DNA from: a candidate division WWE3 bacterium RBG_19FT_COMBO_53_11 | GTDB lineage: Bacteria; Patescibacteriota; WWE3; 9FT-COMBO-53-11 | Assembly: GCA_001772805.1 (NCBI GenBank) | Contig: MEUW01000001.1 | Span: forward strand, 1 to 55,126 | Length of the DNA: 55,126 nt | Reading direction: 5' to 3' | Part shown: piece by piece, positions 2,411-45,506 of the stretch | How the letters are laid out: every line of letters begins with the position of its first letter | Position numbering within the stretch: position 1 is the first letter of the stretch | Notes under the pieces: model-generated | Told to the model about the DNA's origin: nothing | What the model saw: the letters and a program-made list of their open reading frames with translations, nothing else | Database searches by the model: none | Position numbers and translations under genes: made by a program

Positions 2411-2583
2411 GGTGCTCGCTGCAAGCTCGCATTCCCTTAACACTATTTGACGCCCTCAAATAGCTAGCTTTGGAACAAAGCGTCCAATTGTTTTCCGCCC
2501 TAAGGCGGGAACAAAGACGGCCGCCGTTGGCGACCTAGCTTCCTTCGGAAGGAGGCGCCTCGCTAACGCTCGGGTGCCTATTG
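2411..2583. repeat. Long composite intergenic repeat, copy 1 (partner at 42412-42516)
   Basis: Bases 2511-2583 match 42444-42516 over 73 bp with two differences by eye. Bases 2411-2443 also match the DNA just before the partner with a few changes. Between these two blocks copy 1 carries an extra 67-bp piece (2444-2510) made of two hairpins: CTATTTGA..TCAAATAG, and TTCCGCCCTAAGGCGGGAA. The latter has a relative at 35853-35870. This shows insertion of small palindromic modules into a larger repeat. Confidence 0.85.
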
Positions 2584-5079: not shown

Positions 5080-5103
5080 TAACTTAACCAAAACCACACG
5101 GAA

Positions 5104-5142
5104 GCCACCGCCTCTGGCGGGGCTCCGCTGAAAGCGGGAGGA
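5104..5142. repeat. Palindromic element also found inside argS
   Basis: Two back-to-back hairpins (CCGCCTCTGGCGG, then a CTCCGC..GCGGGAG-type stem) in the 5' leader of the HAD gene. The same two-hairpin sequence, starting CCACCGCCTC, lies in the coding part of argS at 26396-26431. The 3' end of the element supplies the GGGAGGAG Shine-Dalgarno of the next gene. Confidence 0.8.
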
Positions 5143-5150
5143 GAGATTCT

Positions 5151-5903
5151 GTGAACCTTTGGGTCTTCGACCTCGATGGTACGCTGATTACTTCGGGCAT
5201 TGACTACGCCCGGGCGGTTTTTCACTGGGAGCTGATGTTCATTAACAGGATGGAGCACCGGGCGCCGCACTACGATAAGTTCGTTCCGGATTTCCTGGGT
5301 CTTCTTCGAGAAAGCGAGAAGGAACTTTTCAAAACGATGCGGGCGCATCGGAAGCGTTTCCCCACCTCGATGGTCGAGGCCTATCGCGGTCTCTGTCGAA
5401 ACTTTGGGATGAGCGTCGATCCGGAGATCGAACGAGAGACCTGGGAAATCGGCGTGTCGGCCCTTTCCGAGGAAACCTACCGGAATCGGGGAATGCTGCC
5501 CGGGGCGGAAGAGGCGTTGGCGTTTCTGCAGGAAAGGGGTGACCTGATCTATTGCGTCACCGCTGGAGACCCCGTCGTGCAGTGGATGAAGTGGCGCGGC
5601 TACAACCTTCGCCGCTTCTTCCCTAGCCAGCGAGAGTACCGCGTGATTTGGTGGGACAAGTTGCGGACTCTGAAGAAGCTGCGGAAGCTTCATCGAGACA
5701 AGGCCGCGATCATGGTTGGGGACTCGATCGGCTCGGACCTGATTCCAGCTGCCAAAGCCGGCTACCTACCGATCTACATCCCGCACCCTTCGGTCTGGGA
5801 TCACGGGGAGTTGGAGAAAGAGCCTCCCCCAGGATCGCGGCGGTTCCTGCAGATCACCCAGATCGTATCAGAGTATCAAAGTCTGATCAGGCCGACCGGC
5901 TAA
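5151..5903 (+). CDS. HAD-superfamily hydrolase, paralogue 1
   Basis: 250 residues from a GTG start with GGGAGGAGA before it. HAD motif I is FDLDGT at residues 6-11 (Asp7 nucleophile, Asp9). Motif II is the Thr in CVTAGD near 143, motif III a Lys in WWDKLRTLKK, motif IV GDSIGSD near 190. A helical cap with RFPTSMVEAYRGLC lies between motifs I and II. Such enzymes usually remove phosphate from small molecules, but the substrate cannot be read from sequence. The closest relative in view is the next gene. It has its own promoter and terminator and therefore forms a single-gene unit. Confidence 0.85.
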   Translation: MNLWVFDLDGTLITSGIDYARAVFHWELMFINRMEHRAPHYDKFVPDFLGLLRESEKELFKTMRAHRKRFPTSMVEAYRGLCRNFGMSVDPEIERETWEIGVSALSEETYRNRGMLPGAEEALAFLQERGDLIYCVTAGDPVVQWMKWRGYNLRRFFPSQREYRVIWWDKLRTLKKLRKLHRDKAAIMVGDSIGSDLIPAAKAGYLPIYIPHPSVWDHGELEKEPPPGSRRFLQITQIVSEYQSLIRPTG

Positions 5904-12779: not shown

Positions 12780-13994
12780 ATGGAAGAACAAATCCAACCT
12801 TCGTCTGAATATCCCCGATCCCGTCCTTATCGCGAGAACGGCTACGCGCGCCGGAACGGCGGCGAAGACCAGCCCTATCGGGGCGAAACAATCTCGGTGG
12901 GAGGGGTCCTTGAGATTTTGGCCGATTATGGCGTTTTGCGTTCCGAAGTCGAGCAAGAGGGAGATCTCCCCTCCGACGTTTATGTTTCCCTTTCGCAGAT
13001 CCGCCGGTTGGACCTGCGGATGGGCGATACGATCGAAGGGATCGCCCGCCCGCCTAAAGAAGGGGAGCGGTATCTCTCGCTCTTGAAAGTCGTCAAAGTG
13101 GCCGGAATGACGCCCGAGGAAGCCCAGAAGCGGCCGCGGTTCGATCGACTGACCCCGATCTTCCCGAACGAATGGATGAAGTTGGAAACCGATGAGGCCC
13201 CCCTTTCCACCCGTTTGATTGATCTTTTTGCACCGATCGGCAAAGGCCAGCGCGGAATGATTGTCTCCCCGCCCAAAGCCGGAAAAACCTGGCTGCTTAA
13301 AGATATCGCCAACGGCATTACCCTCAACCATCCCAAAGTTAGGATAATGGTCGCCCTGATCGGGGAGCGTCCCGAGGAGGTGACCGACATCTCCCGTTCA
13401 GTCAAGGGGGAGGTTTTTTCCTCCAACTTTGATGAGACCGGAGAGGACCAAGTTCGGATCGCCGAGACGTGTTTGGAGAAAGCCAAGCGCGCTGCGGAAG
13501 CCGGAGAGGACGTGGTGATTTTAATGGATTCTTTGACCCGGGCTGCCCGGGCCTACAATCTGGTCGTGCCACCTTCGGGGCGGACGCTGTCCGGCGGTTT
13601 TGACCCGATTGCGCTCTATCCTCCCAAACACTTTTTTGGCGCCGCCCGGAACTTCGAAAATGGCGGATCGCTGACGATTATCGCGACTGCGCTGGTGGAC
13701 ACGGGCTCCCGGATGGATGACCTCATTTACGAGGAGTTCAAAGGGACCGGCAATATGGAACTGCATTTGGATCGCAATTTGGCCGAACGTCGCATCTACC
13801 CCGCGATCAACATTGTTAAGTCCGGCACGCGCCATGAGGAGCTTCTCTTTGACAAGACGATGCTCGAACAGATTTATACGCTTCGCCGGATGGTTGACAC
13901 GCTCGGCGATCAAGCGACCGAGCTGGTCGTCAGCCGCTTGCGCAGGACCAAGAGCAACAAGGAATTTTTGTCTACCCTCAAAGAAGCCAAATAA
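12780..13994 (+). CDS. rho: Transcription termination factor Rho
   Basis: 404 residues. Hexameric RNA-dependent ATPase that ends transcription. A short basic N-terminus is followed by the cold-shock-like RNA-binding domain (about 36-108, starting ISVGGVLEILADYGVLR). The RecA-type motor has P-loop SPPKAGKT (about 162-169), a GERPEEVTD segment, DSLTR and a Q-loop region SGGFDP. All catalytic parts look intact. There is no long insertion, unlike in many actinobacterial Rho proteins. No Shine-Dalgarno is visible before the ATG. Close Rho-independent terminators in the window show that both termination modes are used. Confidence 0.96.
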   Translation: MEEQIQPSSEYPRSRPYRENGYARRNGGEDQPYRGETISVGGVLEILADYGVLRSEVEQEGDLPSDVYVSLSQIRRLDLRMGDTIEGIARPPKEGERYLSLLKVVKVAGMTPEEAQKRPRFDRLTPIFPNEWMKLETDEAPLSTRLIDLFAPIGKGQRGMIVSPPKAGKTWLLKDIANGITLNHPKVRIMVALIGERPEEVTDISRSVKGEVFSSNFDETGEDQVRIAETCLEKAKRAAEAGEDVVILMDSLTRAARAYNLVVPPSGRTLSGGFDPIALYPPKHFFGAARNFENGGSLTIIATALVDTGSRMDDLIYEEFKGTGNMELHLDRNLAERRIYPAINIVKSGTRHEELLFDKTMLEQIYTLRRMVDTLGDQATELVVSRLRRTKSNKEFLSTLKEAK

Positions 13995-24389: not shown

Positions 24390-25219
24390 TTTTAGGAGTT
24401 CTTTTAGGAGTCTTTTTCCTAATCTTTTGGACGCTAGAACCGCGTTTCTCAGCCTATTTATCTGGAGGGGAAGGACTTTTGATCCGCTTCTACGACGTGG
24501 GGCAAGGAGATGCGATTTTGATTGAGAAAGGGACGACCCAAATCCTGATAGACGGGGGCCCGAACGATCGTATTTTGAGCTACCTGGGGCGGGATTTACT
24601 CCCGTGGGACCGGGAAATTGAGCTCCTGGTTCTCACTCATCCCCATGCCGACCATTTAACCGGCCTTATTCCCGTAATTGAGCGCTACAAAATTGATCGG
24701 ATCCTCTATTATCCGAGCGTTTACGACACCGCCGGCTATCAAAAGTTCCAAGAGTTGGTTAAAAAAGAGGGCGCTGAGGTTCTTTTTGGAAAAGAGGATG
24801 CCCAAATTAGCGTTGGGGAATTCTTCTTTCAGATACTTTGGCCAACTGCTAACTTTCACAGTGTCAACCCAAACAATGAGTCGGTCGTAATGCTTTTGGA
24901 TTATCAAGAATTTGAAACTTTACTCCTGGGAGATGCAGAGAAAGAGGTCCAGTCGCAACTGATTATCAAAGATGACGTCGAGGTGATAAAAGTCGGGCAC
25001 CACGGTTCAGCAAATGGGAGCTACGAACCTCTTTTGCGCACAGTATCGCCAAACCTGGCGGTGGTCTCGGTCGGGGCGAGAAATCAATACGGCCACCCCC
25101 ATCAGCAAACGCTTGATCTATTTGCTAAGTTCGGGATACCACTCCTGATAACCGATTTGAATGGAACGATCACGGTGCGGAGCGACGGGCATAATTTTTG
25201 GTATGATACTGAAAGATGA
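24344..25219 (+). CDS. ComEC metallo-beta-lactamase domain as a separate protein
   Basis: 291 residues. One membrane helix (about 13-31, EKLILGVLLGVFFLIFWTL) is followed by a metallo-beta-lactamase fold with VGQGDAILIE, THPHADH (zinc ligands), a LLGDAEKE segment and VGHHGSANGS. In other bacteria this is the C-terminal domain of ComEC and is thought to degrade the non-transported strand. Here it overlaps the channel gene by 46 nt in another frame and has its own TTAGGAGGAGGATT Shine-Dalgarno. It is thus a true split gene rather than a sequencing error. It overlaps argS by ATGA. Confidence 0.92.
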   Translation: MVSLPGINRKTTEKLILGVLLGVFFLIFWTLEPRFSAYLSGGEGLLIRFYDVGQGDAILIEKGTTQILIDGGPNDRILSYLGRDLLPWDREIELLVLTHPHADHLTGLIPVIERYKIDRILYYPSVYDTAGYQKFQELVKKEGAEVLFGKEDAQISVGEFFFQILWPTANFHSVNPNNESVVMLLDYQEFETLLLGDAEKEVQSQLIIKDDVEVIKVGHHGSANGSYEPLLRTVSPNLAVVSVGARNQYGHPHQQTLDLFAKFGIPLLITDLNGTITVRSDGHNFWYDTER

Positions 25220-26916
25220 GAATAGAAATTGAAGACGCCGTCAAAAAGGCCGTCCAAGAACTTTATCGCTTAGAACTCGCTTCCCCTTTGGAGCACCCGA
25301 AACAGGAGAGTTTTGGCGATTTTGCTTCCCCCGCGGCGTTGGAAGTCGCCCGCCAAACCGGCAGTGATCCGTTGGAGATCGCTTCTCAGCTCAAACTCAA
25401 GCTTGAAGATGATTTAAAGGATTTGATTGAAGAGATTCAGGTCGAAAAACCGGGCTTCCTTAATTTTTGGCTTAAAGATCAACTCTTGCTGGAGGAATTG
25501 GGCCGAATTGCGAAGGGGGCCGACCGCTACGGCTCCTTGGATCTAGGGAAGGGTGAAACCATCATCATCGATTACTCCGCCCCCAACATCGCCAAGCGCT
25601 TTGGGATTGGCCACCTGCGCTCGACCGTAATCGGGCAGGCGCTCTACAACCTGTATAAGTTTTCCGGATACAAGGTGGTCGGAGACAACCATTTGGGAGA
25701 TTGGGGAACACAATTTGGCGCAATTCTGCGCCAAGTAAAATCTAAGAATTTGAATGTTAAAAATTTAAACGTTGATAAATTAGAGGAACTTTATGTCGAT
25801 TTTCACCGAGAGGCGGAACAAAATCCCAAGCGGATGGAAGAAGCGCGGGAGTGGTTCCTCAAGCTGGAGAGCGGGGATAAGGAGGCGCGGGAGATTTGGC
25901 AGGAAGTTATCGATGCGTCAAAGAAAGAATTTGACCGGATTTATGCTCTTCTCGGGGTGGGATTCGACTACGCCTACGGAGAGAGCTTCTACGAAGATAA
26001 GATGCCGGAAGTGATCGCCGAAGTCCGGAAAAAGGGATTGGTAAAGAAGAGCGACGGGGCCGAGATTATTGAGTTTCCGAACCTACCGCCGGCGATTCTG
26101 GTTAAGAGCGACGGGGCCACCACTTATTTTACCCGCGATTTGGCGACGATTAAGTTTCGGATTGAAGAGTGGAATCCGCAAACGATCATCTATGAAGTTG
26201 GATCGGACCAAAAGCTACACTTTCAGCAGGTCTTCGAAACCGCTCGAAAATTGGGTTGGGCGGACGGGCGGGAGTTTGTGCATGTGGCGCACGGGCTGAT
26301 TCGCTTCGCCGAAGGCAAACTATCCACCCGCCGCGGACAGACGGTTAAATTGGAGGATGTTTTGGAAGAAGCAATCGCGCGGGCGAAGAAATTGACCACC
26401 GCCTCCGGCGGGGCCCCGCAGAATGCGGGGGCGGGCAGAAATGAGGACATCGCGCGAGCGGTTGGGGTGGGAGCGCTTAAATACTTCGATCTCTCGCACC
26501 AGCCTCAAACCGATATTATCTTCGAATGGGAAAAGCTCTTTTTAATGGAGGGGAACAGCGCACCGTATCTCCAGTATACATACGCTAGAGCCAAATCAGT
26601 TTTGGCGAAAGCTAAAACTGACAACCCATTAGCCATGAGTCATGAGCCATTAGCCAGCGAAGCAGAAGCCCCGCTTCTGCGCTGGCTCTACCGTTTCCCG
26701 GAAGTTGTTCAAGACGCGGGGCGGAACTACTCTCCCAACCTGCTTTGCAATTACCTTTTTGAGCTGGCCCAGCGCTTTAACAGCTTCTACGCCGCCGCGC
26801 CGATTCTCAAGGCCGAAGAAAATAAAGATTTGCGGCTTGCCTTAACTTCCGCGACCGCGCAGGTGCTAAAGAATGGTCTGACGCTTTTGGGGATTGAAAC
26901 GCTGGAGCGGCTTTAA
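25216..26916 (+). CDS. argS: Arginyl-tRNA synthetase
   Basis: 566 residues. The HIGH-like motif is GIGHLRSTVIG after a DYSAPNIAK segment. The KMSKS region reads GKLSTRRGQTV, as in many ArgRS without the second Lys. A C-terminal DALR anticodon-binding domain is present. In-frame insertions: SKNLNVKNLNVDKL (DNA 25737-25785), ASGGAPQNAGAGRN (26396-26440, the same palindromic element as at 5104-5142), and DNPLAMSHEPLASE (26625-26660). The ATG overlaps the upstream gene by 4 nt, so argS is the last gene of the comEA-comEC operon. The 3' end overlaps convergent ndk by 4 nt. Confidence 0.95.
   Translation: MRIEIEDAVKKAVQELYRLELASPLEHPKQESFGDFASPAALEVARQTGSDPLEIASQLKLKLEDDLKDLIEEIQVEKPGFLNFWLKDQLLLEELGRIAKGADRYGSLDLGKGETIIIDYSAPNIAKRFGIGHLRSTVIGQALYNLYKFSGYKVVGDNHLGDWGTQFGAILRQVKSKNLNVKNLNVDKLEELYVDFHREAEQNPKRMEEAREWFLKLESGDKEAREIWQEVIDASKKEFDRIYALLGVGFDYAYGESFYEDKMPEVIAEVRKKGLVKKSDGAEIIEFPNLPPAILVKSDGATTYFTRDLATIKFRIEEWNPQTIIYEVGSDQKLHFQQVFETARKLGWADGREFVHVAHGLIRFAEGKLSTRRGQTVKLEDVLEEAIARAKKLTTASGGAPQNAGAGRNEDIARAVGVGALKYFDLSHQPQTDIIFEWEKLFLMEGNSAPYLQYTYARAKSVLAKAKTDNPLAMSHEPLASEAEAPLLRWLYRFPEVVQDAGRNYSPNLLCNYLFELAQRFNSFYAAAPILKAEENKDLRLALTSATAQVLKNGLTLLGIETLERL
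26396..26431. repeat. Palindromic element inside argS (partner at 5104-5142)
   Basis: Same two-hairpin sequence as in the leader of the HAD gene: CCACCGCCTC, then a GGCGGGGC middle, then CCGC..GCGG. It encodes a Gly/Ala/Pro-rich loop between conserved ArgRS segments. Confidence 0.85.
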
Positions 26917-31954: not shown

Positions 31955-34069
31955 ATGGCGTTTTTTACCCGCTTTCGCCAACTACTGTCTAATGGCTCCT
32001 GGCTACTGGCTTTGCTAGTCTTTTCGACAATCTTTGAGCGTCTCAACGTTTTTGTTCCATCCATGGATTTTTCTTTGAAGCTTTCCTTGCTTATCCTGCC
32101 GATTGCGGGTTTGGTGCTCTTGCTCAAGAAACGCTTAACCTTCAACCCCACTTTCCTGTTCCCGGCGCTGGCGGCGGCGGTTTTAACGGAGATTTTGTCG
32201 ATCATCTTTTCTTTTGACCGTTTCCAGAGCTTGCAGGTTGTGGTTTTACACCTGCTGATGATCAGCCTGTTCTACCTGATTGTCTGGAGTGTACGGAGCG
32301 AGCGAGGACTGGATCGGCTGGTTTGGGCTTGGGGGGTTGGAACCGGCACGGTTTCCTTACTGGGAATCTGGCAATTCTTCCGCTATGCTTGGGGAGCGGA
32401 TCCGACCCTTTTCTTTGAAAGCTGGTTTTCGGCCAAAACTCTTCCCGTGGATACATTTATCCAGTCGCTTTACGGGTTGTTGAGCTGGCAAACGCGGCAT
32501 TCTTTGGGGATGGCCGACCATTTTTTGCGGCCGCCCTCCACTTTCATCGATGTTTCCACCGGCGCTTCGTTTGTCGGTATTTTCCTGATCTTAGGATTGG
32601 GTTGGTTTCTGAGTTGGAAGAGGGAGGATCGACGACGGGTGTTAATAGGGGCGCTGATGGTAATTGCCTCTCTTTACTTTATAATTACGGTTTCCCGGAG
32701 TGCAGCGCTGGGTTTGGTCGCGGGAGTGGGCGTCTTCTCCTACCTTTATTTTAAAGATCGAATTAACACTAAGATCCTCAAATCTCTTATTACCACCGGG
32801 GCGTTGGCGATTTTGGGGGCGGGGATCGTCTTCAGCATCACAACCCAGCGCTTGGGATCAACCTTGAATCGGCTAACCTACGCCCAAGATGCTTGGCAGA
32901 TGTTTATTAAAAATCCTTTATTTGGTGTTGGGGTAGGCAACTTTGAGCCATACTGCATGAGCATCTTGAACCCCGGAAGCCCGGCTTGCTATTCGCATTC
33001 TATCTTTCTGACTTGGCTGGGGGAGATGGGCATTCTTGGTTTGGCGGTGAACCTCTTTCTCGCCGCCGTCCTAATCTACTTTCTTCACCGTCTTTTCGAT
33101 AGACTGGGGCGCGAAAATGTTTGGAAATGGCGAATTGCGGGGCTACTCTCGGCCTACGTCGCTCTGCTCGCAGCGAACTTGTTCCACGCGCATTACGGCC
33201 TCGACTTTACTTGGGTTTTGCTTGGTTTGGCGGTCGCCGGATATTATTCCGCGAAAGCGGAATATTACAACCGAGCAGAGCGAGGGCAGTACTACCTCAC
33301 AAAAAATTCGAAATCAGAAGTTCAAAATTCGAAGTTGGACATTCTGGGCGTCAAAATTGACGACGTTGCGATGGAAGAGGCCGTTGAGCGGGTCAAGGGA
33401 TTCTTCAAATCCGGTCAAAAGGCTTATGTAGTCACGCCGAACTCTGAGATGATCATCGCCGCACGAAAGGATAAAGAATTTAATTGGGTACTGAATCAGG
33501 CTGATCTGGCGGTTCCCGACACTGCAGGACTGGTTTGGGCCTCCCGAATCTGGGGTACTCCTCTAAAAGAGCGGGTAGCGGGAACGGATCTTTTTGAGCG
33601 GCTTTGCGAGGAAGCGGCCCGCCGGGGTGGGCGGGTGTTTTTCTTGGAAGGGCCGGAGGGTTTGCGCTCCGGCGCCATCGCGGCGGAGAATCTTAAGAAG
33701 CGATATCCCAAGCTAACGGTGGCTGGGACCGCGGTTGCCGCCTACGCTGACGAGAAAGAGGCAACGGCGGCGATCAAAAGTGCTAGCCGCGGCCGCGAGA
33801 TCGATTTTCTGTTTGTCGCCTACGGCCATGGGCGGCAGGAGCAGTGGATTGCGCGCAATTTGCCTAAAATTTCGGTCAAAGTGGCGGTGGGGATTGGCGG
33901 GGCGCTCGATTTTGCCGCCGGAGCGCAAAGGCGCGCGCCTACCCTTATTCGCCGCTTAGGATTTGAATGGCTTTACCGACTGGTCAAACAGCCGTGGCGA
34001 ATAAAACGCCAGCTCACTCTTTTGCCCTTCATCTTTTTGACCTTCAAGGAATCGTTTAAGAGAATCTAG
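31955..34069 (+). CDS. Fusion of O-antigen ligase/polymerase-like and WecG/TagA/CpsF glycosyltransferase
   Basis: 704 residues. Residues 1-about 435 have about ten membrane helices and the O-antigen ligase loop (GVGVGNFEPYCM..ACYSHSIFLTWLGEMGILG). Residues about 465-704 are a WecG/TagA/CpsF GT26 domain: VTPNSEMIIAARKD, then ADLAVPDTAGLVWASRIWG, RVAGTDLFERL, and YGHGRQEQWIARNLP. GT26 enzymes add a sugar (often N-acetylmannosaminuronate or N-acetylmannosamine) to a lipid-linked acceptor. The join (about 448-464, TKNSKSEVQNSKLD) is encoded by AAATTCGAAAT-type repeat words (DNA 33298-33345). This suggests that repeat insertion removed a stop and fused two genes. TAGAAT 10 nt before the ATG. Confidence 0.88.
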   Translation: MAFFTRFRQLLSNGSWLLALLVFSTIFERLNVFVPSMDFSLKLSLLILPIAGLVLLLKKRLTFNPTFLFPALAAAVLTEILSIIFSFDRFQSLQVVVLHLLMISLFYLIVWSVRSERGLDRLVWAWGVGTGTVSLLGIWQFFRYAWGADPTLFFESWFSAKTLPVDTFIQSLYGLLSWQTRHSLGMADHFLRPPSTFIDVSTGASFVGIFLILGLGWFLSWKREDRRRVLIGALMVIASLYFIITVSRSAALGLVAGVGVFSYLYFKDRINTKILKSLITTGALAILGAGIVFSITTQRLGSTLNRLTYAQDAWQMFIKNPLFGVGVGNFEPYCMSILNPGSPACYSHSIFLTWLGEMGILGLAVNLFLAAVLIYFLHRLFDRLGRENVWKWRIAGLLSAYVALLAANLFHAHYGLDFTWVLLGLAVAGYYSAKAEYYNRAERGQYYLTKNSKSEVQNSKLDILGVKIDDVAMEEAVERVKGFFKSGQKAYVVTPNSEMIIAARKDKEFNWVLNQADLAVPDTAGLVWASRIWGTPLKERVAGTDLFERLCEEAARRGGRVFFLEGPEGLRSGAIAAENLKKRYPKLTVAGTAVAAYADEKEATAAIKSASRGREIDFLFVAYGHGRQEQWIARNLPKISVKVAVGIGGALDFAAGAQRRAPTLIRRLGFEWLYRLVKQPWRIKRQLTLLPFIFLTFKESFKRI

Positions 34070-42414: not shown

Positions 42415-42516
42415 GTGTTCGCGGCAGGCTCACATTCCTTAACACAAAGACGGCCGCCGTTGGCGACCTAGCTTCCTTCGGAAGGAGGCGCTTCGCTAAC
42501 GCTCAGGTGCCTATTG
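42412..42516. repeat. Long composite intergenic repeat, copy 2 (partner at 2411-2583)
   Basis: Begins at the stop of the preceding gene. Bases 42444-42516 match 2511-2583 with two differences by eye. It lacks the 67-bp piece inside copy 1. It includes GACGGCCGCCGT, TCCTTCGGAAGGA and GCTAACGCT palindromes and ends in GTGCCTATTG, which supplies the -35 of the secE promoter. Confidence 0.85.
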
Positions 42517-44705: not shown

Positions 44706-44722
44706 ATCGGGTATAGTATAAG
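44697..44722 (+). promoter_or_regulatory. Possible internal promoter for rplJL
   Basis: TTGACA (44697-44702) overlaps the L1 stop codon. TATAGTATAA follows at 44712-44721. Spacing to TATAAG is only about 14 nt, so this is weak. Confidence 0.35.
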
Positions 44723-44723
44723 T

Positions 44724-44785
44724 CATCCGAAGACAGTGGGGGTCCCGAGCGTAGTCGAGGGGCTTAATCATCCCGCCGAGGAATT
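44724..44785 (+). promoter_or_regulatory. L10 leader (ribosomal protein L10-L12 autoregulation element)
   Basis: CATCCGAAGACAGTGGGGG..CTTAATCATCCCGCCGAGGA has the conserved CCGAAGACAG and CCGCCGAGG segments of the known L10 leader kink-turn. Free L10(L12)4 complex binds it to repress rplJL. It sits where expected, between rplA and rplJ. Confidence 0.8.
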
Positions 44786-44885
44786 GATAGTAGCGAGTTG
44801 CGAGTAGCAAGTAGCTAGTATTTTCTCGGCGCGAGCCGAGTTTTTGTTTAACTTGATACTCGCCACTAGTTACTGGCTACTAATT
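44786..44885 (+). terminator. Attenuator hairpin of the L10 leader, flanked by word repeats
   Basis: CTCGGC GCGA GCCGAG TTTTT (44825-44845). Its left arm is also complementary to GCCGAG in the leader (44775-44780), giving a terminator/antiterminator choice. The hairpin is embedded between GTAGCGAGTTGCGAGTAGC words (44786-44822) and their inverse (44849-44885), so a repeat pair has been inserted around it. Confidence 0.7.
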
Positions 44886-44891
44886 ATTGCA

Positions 44892-45506
44892 ATGGTTAAC
44901 GAGGCCGTGCCTGCCGGTAGGCAGAAAAAAGTTCAACAAGTTGAAGAGCTAGCGAAAGAAGCCGCCGAGTCGGGAGCGGTGGTGTTCTCCGATTATTCCG
45001 GATTAACCGTGGCGGAGATGTCTGAACTCCGCAAGAAACTGGCGGTGCTCGGCGCCGATTTGCGGGTAGTGAAAAACACTCTTCTTGGTCTGGCTTTGGA
45101 AAAAGCCGGACTTCGCTCCGAGAAGCTAGCGAGTTCGGATCGTGTCCTTTCTTCCGAAGAACTGGAAGGGCCGACCGCAGCGCTTTTCTCCCATTCGGCC
45201 GATCCGATCGAGAGCATCAAAGTCCTGGTCTCTTATCTCAAGGAAAAGGCCAAGGGGGAGGTCAAGTTTGGATTTTTCTCCGCCAAAGGCGGGCCCGCCT
45301 CGGGCGGGGAGATGACCTTAATGGCTGCGGAGGGGTTTGCCGAACTGGCGATGCTTCCCGGTAAACTGGTATTGCAGACCCGGTTAGTATCACAACTCTC
45401 GGCCCCGATATACAAACTAGCGTATGTGTTGTCAGCCCAGCAACAGAAGTTGGTAATGATTTTCGATGCAATCGCGAAAACGAAGGGGGGTGTTGCTAAT
45501 GGCTGA
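44892..45506 (+). CDS. rplJ: 50S ribosomal protein L10
   Basis: 204 residues from the ATG at 44892. Builds the base of the L12 stalk. Core [35 protein letters not shown] is typical. Residues 6-11 (VPAGRQ) come from GTGCCTGCCGGTAGGCAG (44907-44924), a palindromic insertion also present in L1. The C-terminal part binds L12. The last 8 nt overlap rplL. About 25 residues longer than common L10. Confidence 0.94.

Follow-up and report, generated by a model that had tools for sequence, protein, structure and literature searches.

A two-hairpin palindromic element in argS and other genes of a WWE3 bacterium, probably a dispersed repeat that has moved into coding sequence

Introduction

The arginyl-tRNA synthetase gene (argS) of candidate division WWE3 bacterium RBG_19FT_COMBO_53_11 contains, in frame, a palindromic sequence that recurs in the leader of an unrelated gene. 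This raises the question of whether repeats found between genes also enter conserved coding sequences, and whether argS is a good place to see it. The initial annotation considered the argS copy the clearest proof of such movement. The DNA analysed, hereafter the window, is a stretch of 55,126 nucleotides (contig MEUW01000001.1, positions 1-55,126). The argS sequence probably belongs to a non-autonomous palindromic repeat that is dispersed in several branches of the Patescibacteria and has moved into genes; other genes prove to be cleaner examples of the process.

The element and its copies in the genome

The element consists of two adjacent GC-rich hairpins of about 42 bp (AGCCACCGCC-loop-GGCGGGGYCCCGC-loop-GCGGG), and the aligned copies, 36-42 bp in length, give stems of CCGCC-loop-GGCGG followed by CCGC-loop-GCGG. 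The copy in argS (26393-26434, + strand) and the copy in the leader of a HAD-family hydrolase gene (5102-5143, + strand) were both confirmed. They had been described as near-identical, which is slightly strong wording for two sequences that share 31 of 37 bases (84%). A covariance model of the element, R1, detects eight full copies in the whole genome (E 3e-11 to 2e-14, with seven of the eight forming the training set); the argS and HAD-leader copies each score E 1.6e-14, the argS copy being among the training sequences. Outside the training set are the copy at C10:34731 and the single copy in one genome of the same family (G001), the latter with E 6e-11; E-values for such untrained copies lie near 1e-11.

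Sorted by location and frame, the eight full copies are intergenic, in leaders, or in frame in argS, a P-type ATPase and a VirB4-like ATPase, and the sites that they occupy within a genome are unrelated to one another, some in intergenic DNA, some immediately before start codons and some in the reading frame of conserved genes. Two are intergenic (C17:3862 and C10:34731), one lies upstream of lepA (C21:67420), and one precedes an ATG (C18:10894). The P-type ATPase copy (C15:5246) encodes KATASGGVPQDAGN, and an opposite-strand copy (C12:6686) is in frame in the proline-rich N-terminal tail of a VirB4/TraG-like ATPase (PAFSGAPPEAVV). The C-terminus of a signal peptidase is encoded by a partial copy (C9:17688); the names lepA and signal peptidase, where they go beyond the Pfam matches, are our reading of the sequence. 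A further match, in SufC (C10:6998), is presumably a chance similarity to ordinary SufC sequence.

Other repeats are also present. A second family, ATTGCAACCGAGC-n-GCGAGGACAGCACT, matches 22 times in a sample of 255 kb, parts of which overlap one another, with sites at window position 33266 (in the gene at 31955-34069), at 12899, 13291 and 13479 of L275 and at 7383 of L273. It is found in frame as IATEQSEDST three times in one ORF of C13 and as YYNRAERGQYY in the window gene at 31955-34069, and it also overlaps the likely start of lepA. A 73-bp direct repeat with palindromic stretches (window 2511-2583 and 42444-42516, 97% identical) is likely one of several intergenic repeat families.

The argS copy

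The host gene, argS (25216-26916, + strand), encodes a 566-residue arginyl-tRNA synthetase (Pfam PF00750, PF05746 and PF03485; PDB ArgRS matches to E 6e-106). The in-frame peptide given in the initial annotation, ASGGAPQNAGAG, is correct; codons 26395-26436 specify residues T394-G407, TTASGGAPQNAGAG. In the predicted structure this segment is a loop between the helices at 379-396 and 406-426, with pLDDT of 66-73. Among aligned relatives the linker at this site varies from 3 to 56 residues (median 22), and G001 and the other aligned relatives have unrelated linkers, so that the segment is not conserved. The window protein has 23 residues here, a net change of +1 over the typical 22.

As judged from the alignment and the predicted structure, the element occupies a naturally variable ArgRS loop, and argS is the less clean case of insertion. 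Because the net change is only one residue, a history of replacement is needed: the element may have been inserted into an ancestor with a short linker (about 10 + 13 residues), or it may have been inserted and the old linker lost. Further copies in this genome and across the phylum, together with the lack of conservation of the argS segment, support the broader claim that intergenic and leader palindromes move into genes. The distinction of being the clearest case passes from argS to ribosomal protein L10, tRNA-guanine transglycosylase (TGT) and the P-type ATPase.

Other linkers in these synthetases may also derive from repeats. The 56-residue linker at the same site in a Blackburnbacteria argS (L096) is possibly another repeat-derived insertion. 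A second linker in the window argS (26611-26664; TDNPLAMSHEPLA, CATTAGCCATGAGTCATGAGCC) also seems to derive from a repeat, and the ArgRS model has its lowest confidence there (pLDDT 58); G001 ArgRS has a linker that is similar to it, but different.

In-frame copies in other genes

Compared with its closest two homologues (48% and 44% identical), the P-type ATPase is longer by about 12 residues where the element lies, between TGESAPVTK and the conserved MVFMGT motif. R1 also has matches (E <= 1e-4) in 21 of 380 sampled Patescibacteria genomes, or 20 of 379 when the source genome is set aside. Most of these copies are intergenic, and one genome (G313) alone contains 13. In-frame copies occur in DNA primase (DnaG) of G067 (ITASGGTPQNAVA), TGT of G102 (LTANGGTPQNAVA), release factor 2 (RF2) of G093 (TTASGGVPPTV), a CAP-domain protein of G169 (ITAVGGTPPKAVA) and a GT4 glycosyltransferase of G109 (PAAGGTPPDGG). 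The TGT and DnaG copies, which belong to another family, encode nearly the same peptide.

The TGT gene provides a filled and an empty site. The element is present in G102 and absent from its congener G067 (76% identical) and from three other family members, and the DNA alignment of the two congeners contains a single 36-bp gap with conserved flanks, equivalent to +12 residues. This pair, the one gene for which congeners with filled and empty sites were compared, is the best evidence, by alignment, for in-frame insertion of the same element as in argS. Against PDB homologues the net change is only +6 residues in TGT and +4 in RF2, because those distant proteins differ in loop length there.

A sister two-hairpin palindrome, TCCGCCAAAGGCGGGCCCGCCTCGGGCGGG, lies in frame (45279-45308, + strand) in rplJ, which encodes ribosomal protein L10 (44844-45506, + strand; start codon uncertain, Pfam PF00466 on a longer ORF), with an Rfam L10 leader just upstream at 44709-44855. 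It is a 30-bp insertion of exactly 10 residues that is absent from all 19 relatives, G001 included; the site is flush in every one of them, and the DNA comparison with G001 displays an empty site. Among indels of at least six residues in 101 ORFs screened against a sample of G001, the L10 insert was the strongest folding outlier (z -4.5).

One phase, giving a TAxGGxPxxAVA-like peptide from either strand, accounts for eight of the nine interior coding copies (p about 0.001 against equal phases, for nine copies and a pattern that was seen before it was counted). The sole exception is a membrane-protein-like ORF of G174. ORFs at L285, L297, L298, L312 and L313 were excluded: in these, the element is at the end of the likely gene or beyond it, or the ORF itself is doubtful. 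The near self-complementarity of the element means that both strands can encode the same kind of peptide.

How the element may spread

Under the preferred explanation, the element would be copied to other sites, probably in single-stranded hairpin form, through an enzyme that acts in trans or through template switching during replication. Most coding insertions would be lost, and the survivors would be those that are multiples of three and lie in tolerant loops or tails; the surviving phase would give a small, flexible Gly/Ala/Pro peptide. No transposase was found linked to the element, and the sole Y1 transposase gene found in the genome is flanked by a different palindrome, with no copy of the element within the 3.3 kb read around it. 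Target-site duplications were lacking in five of the six copies examined; the argS copy has a 6-bp flanking repeat whose spacing of 50 bp would break the frame.

These observations also suit a possible, if rather unlikely, alternative in which there is no mobile element as such and occasional template switching or gene conversion between hairpin-rich sequences, without a dedicated enzyme, generates the copies. The lack of a linked transposase and of target-site duplications favors it, as do the several unrelated short repeat families in the genome that behave alike and a net length change that differs from gene to gene, whereas the ends and length of the element, constant across families in the copy alignment, and the clean unit in TGT argue for a discrete element. 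The two explanations differ in the enzyme only, and most of the evidence is common to both.

A wider reading of the dispersed-element explanation is held tentatively and at somewhat less than even confidence: that very short coding palindromes, tuned in sequence so as to do no harm when translated, keep entering essential enzymes in frame throughout the phylum and are spread by a trans-acting enzyme. Their harmlessness would follow from mostly open frames and one preferred phase that yields a flexible linker, and their targets would include ArgRS, DNA primase, RF2 and TGT, as well as L10 via the sister family.

Viral spread was considered and rejected: the two-hairpin pattern, searched for in 2.9 million viral contigs, gave two chance matches, both to the same GC-rich phage gene.

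Leader copies and translation

The HAD-leader copy (5104-5140) ends with GGGAGGAG (5136-5143), after which 7 nt separate it from the GTG start codon, at 5151, of the hydrolase gene (5151-5903, + strand; Pfam PF00702), and this octamer is a putative Shine-Dalgarno sequence. The leader copy at C18:10894 has GGAGGAGGG before its ATG, and the G001 copy, in the leader of a patatin gene, has GGAGGAGGAG. In these three leaders, which belong to unrelated genes in two species, the GGAGG-type 3' end lies 6-8 nt before the start codon, and the purine-rich 3' end of the element (GGAGGAG) may serve as the Shine-Dalgarno sequence. The initial annotation proposed that one sequence acts as peptide, RNA hairpin and translation signal; this is a fair description of the family, but not of any single copy. 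Both the Shine-Dalgarno role and the RNA hairpin are predictions from the sequence.

It is very unlikely that the element is instead a functional RNA hairpin that partly hides the Shine-Dalgarno sequence in leaders, with the argS copy as an internal regulatory structure and not a mobile insertion. The position of three leader copies directly before start codons in two related species is consistent with such a role, as is the fact that the C18 and G001 copies have their first GGAG paired within hairpin 2. Coding copies, however, lie at unrelated positions in unrelated genes on either strand, and the argS copy folds no better as RNA than its dinucleotide shuffles (z -0.54). Covariation speaks neither for nor against RNA function because the stems are nearly invariant among copies. 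Convergence is scarcely credible: Gly/Ala/Pro-rich loop peptides are common and the element is GC-rich, so that linkers and simple hairpins might resemble one another by chance, but identity spans 37-42 bp, a 19-base core expected 0.08 times in the window at <=3 mismatches was found twice with none, and the strong scores of untrained copies, the near-identity of the TGT and DnaG peptides from another family and the count of two viral hits, both in one phage gene, stand against it.

Relation to known palindromic elements

The nearest parallels to this probable dispersed element are the Rickettsia palindromic elements (RPE-1 to RPE-3 and others) and the Wolbachia palindromic elements, dispersed palindromes that occur both between genes and in frame in unrelated, often essential genes and that, as here, have no known transposase (PMC3767692, PMC10969869). 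RPEs are 100-150 bp in length and are found in frame in genes at tolerated, solvent-exposed positions (PMC3767692, PMC10969869). The present element has in common with them a palindromic form with eight full copies in one genome and in-frame insertion in preexisting functional genes. Unlike the RPEs of Rickettsia and Wolbachia, it measures 36-42 bp, belongs to the WWE3 group of the Patescibacteria, and comprises two adjacent hairpins with an unrelated consensus. It works like an RPE, and by length and host it is not one. We know of no RPE leader copy described as supplying a Shine-Dalgarno sequence.

REP sequences are palindromes of 20-40 bp with many copies, mostly intergenic and some inside genes (PMC3733652). 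The element resembles the GTAG- or CGTC-tagged REPs associated with RAYT transposases in being a short palindrome found both between and within genes, but the GTAG or CGTC tag is absent from its 25 aligned copies. An origin by a REP/RAYT system is not supported, on this ground and on that of the different palindrome that flanks the Y1_Tnp gene. That gene, which is Y1/RAYT-like (G000:C3, L217, about 1370-2030), has GTCAACCCC(A/T)GGGGTTGAC palindromes on both sides and is possibly a REPtron of its own.

MITEs are longer, at 70-300 bp (PMC3733652). Like ERIC or the Coxiella QMITE1, the element is non-autonomous and dispersed, and such elements sometimes form translational fusions (PMC10969869). 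MITEs differ in that they carry terminal inverted repeats shared with a parent IS and are flanked by target-site duplications, and no such duplication was found here.

Conclusions

Until now, coding palindromes were mostly regarded as peculiar to Rickettsia and Wolbachia, and no report of elements of this sort in Patescibacteria was found in the open-access literature, of which coverage was incomplete. That they also occur in a distant phylum of streamlined bacteria, where the unit is 36 bp and congeners show a filled and an empty site, suggests that the phenomenon recurs in bacteria with small genomes. How intergenic repeats may give rise to new protein loops becomes directly testable. For annotation, unusual inserts in the core proteins of Patescibacteria may be repeat-derived rather than functional.
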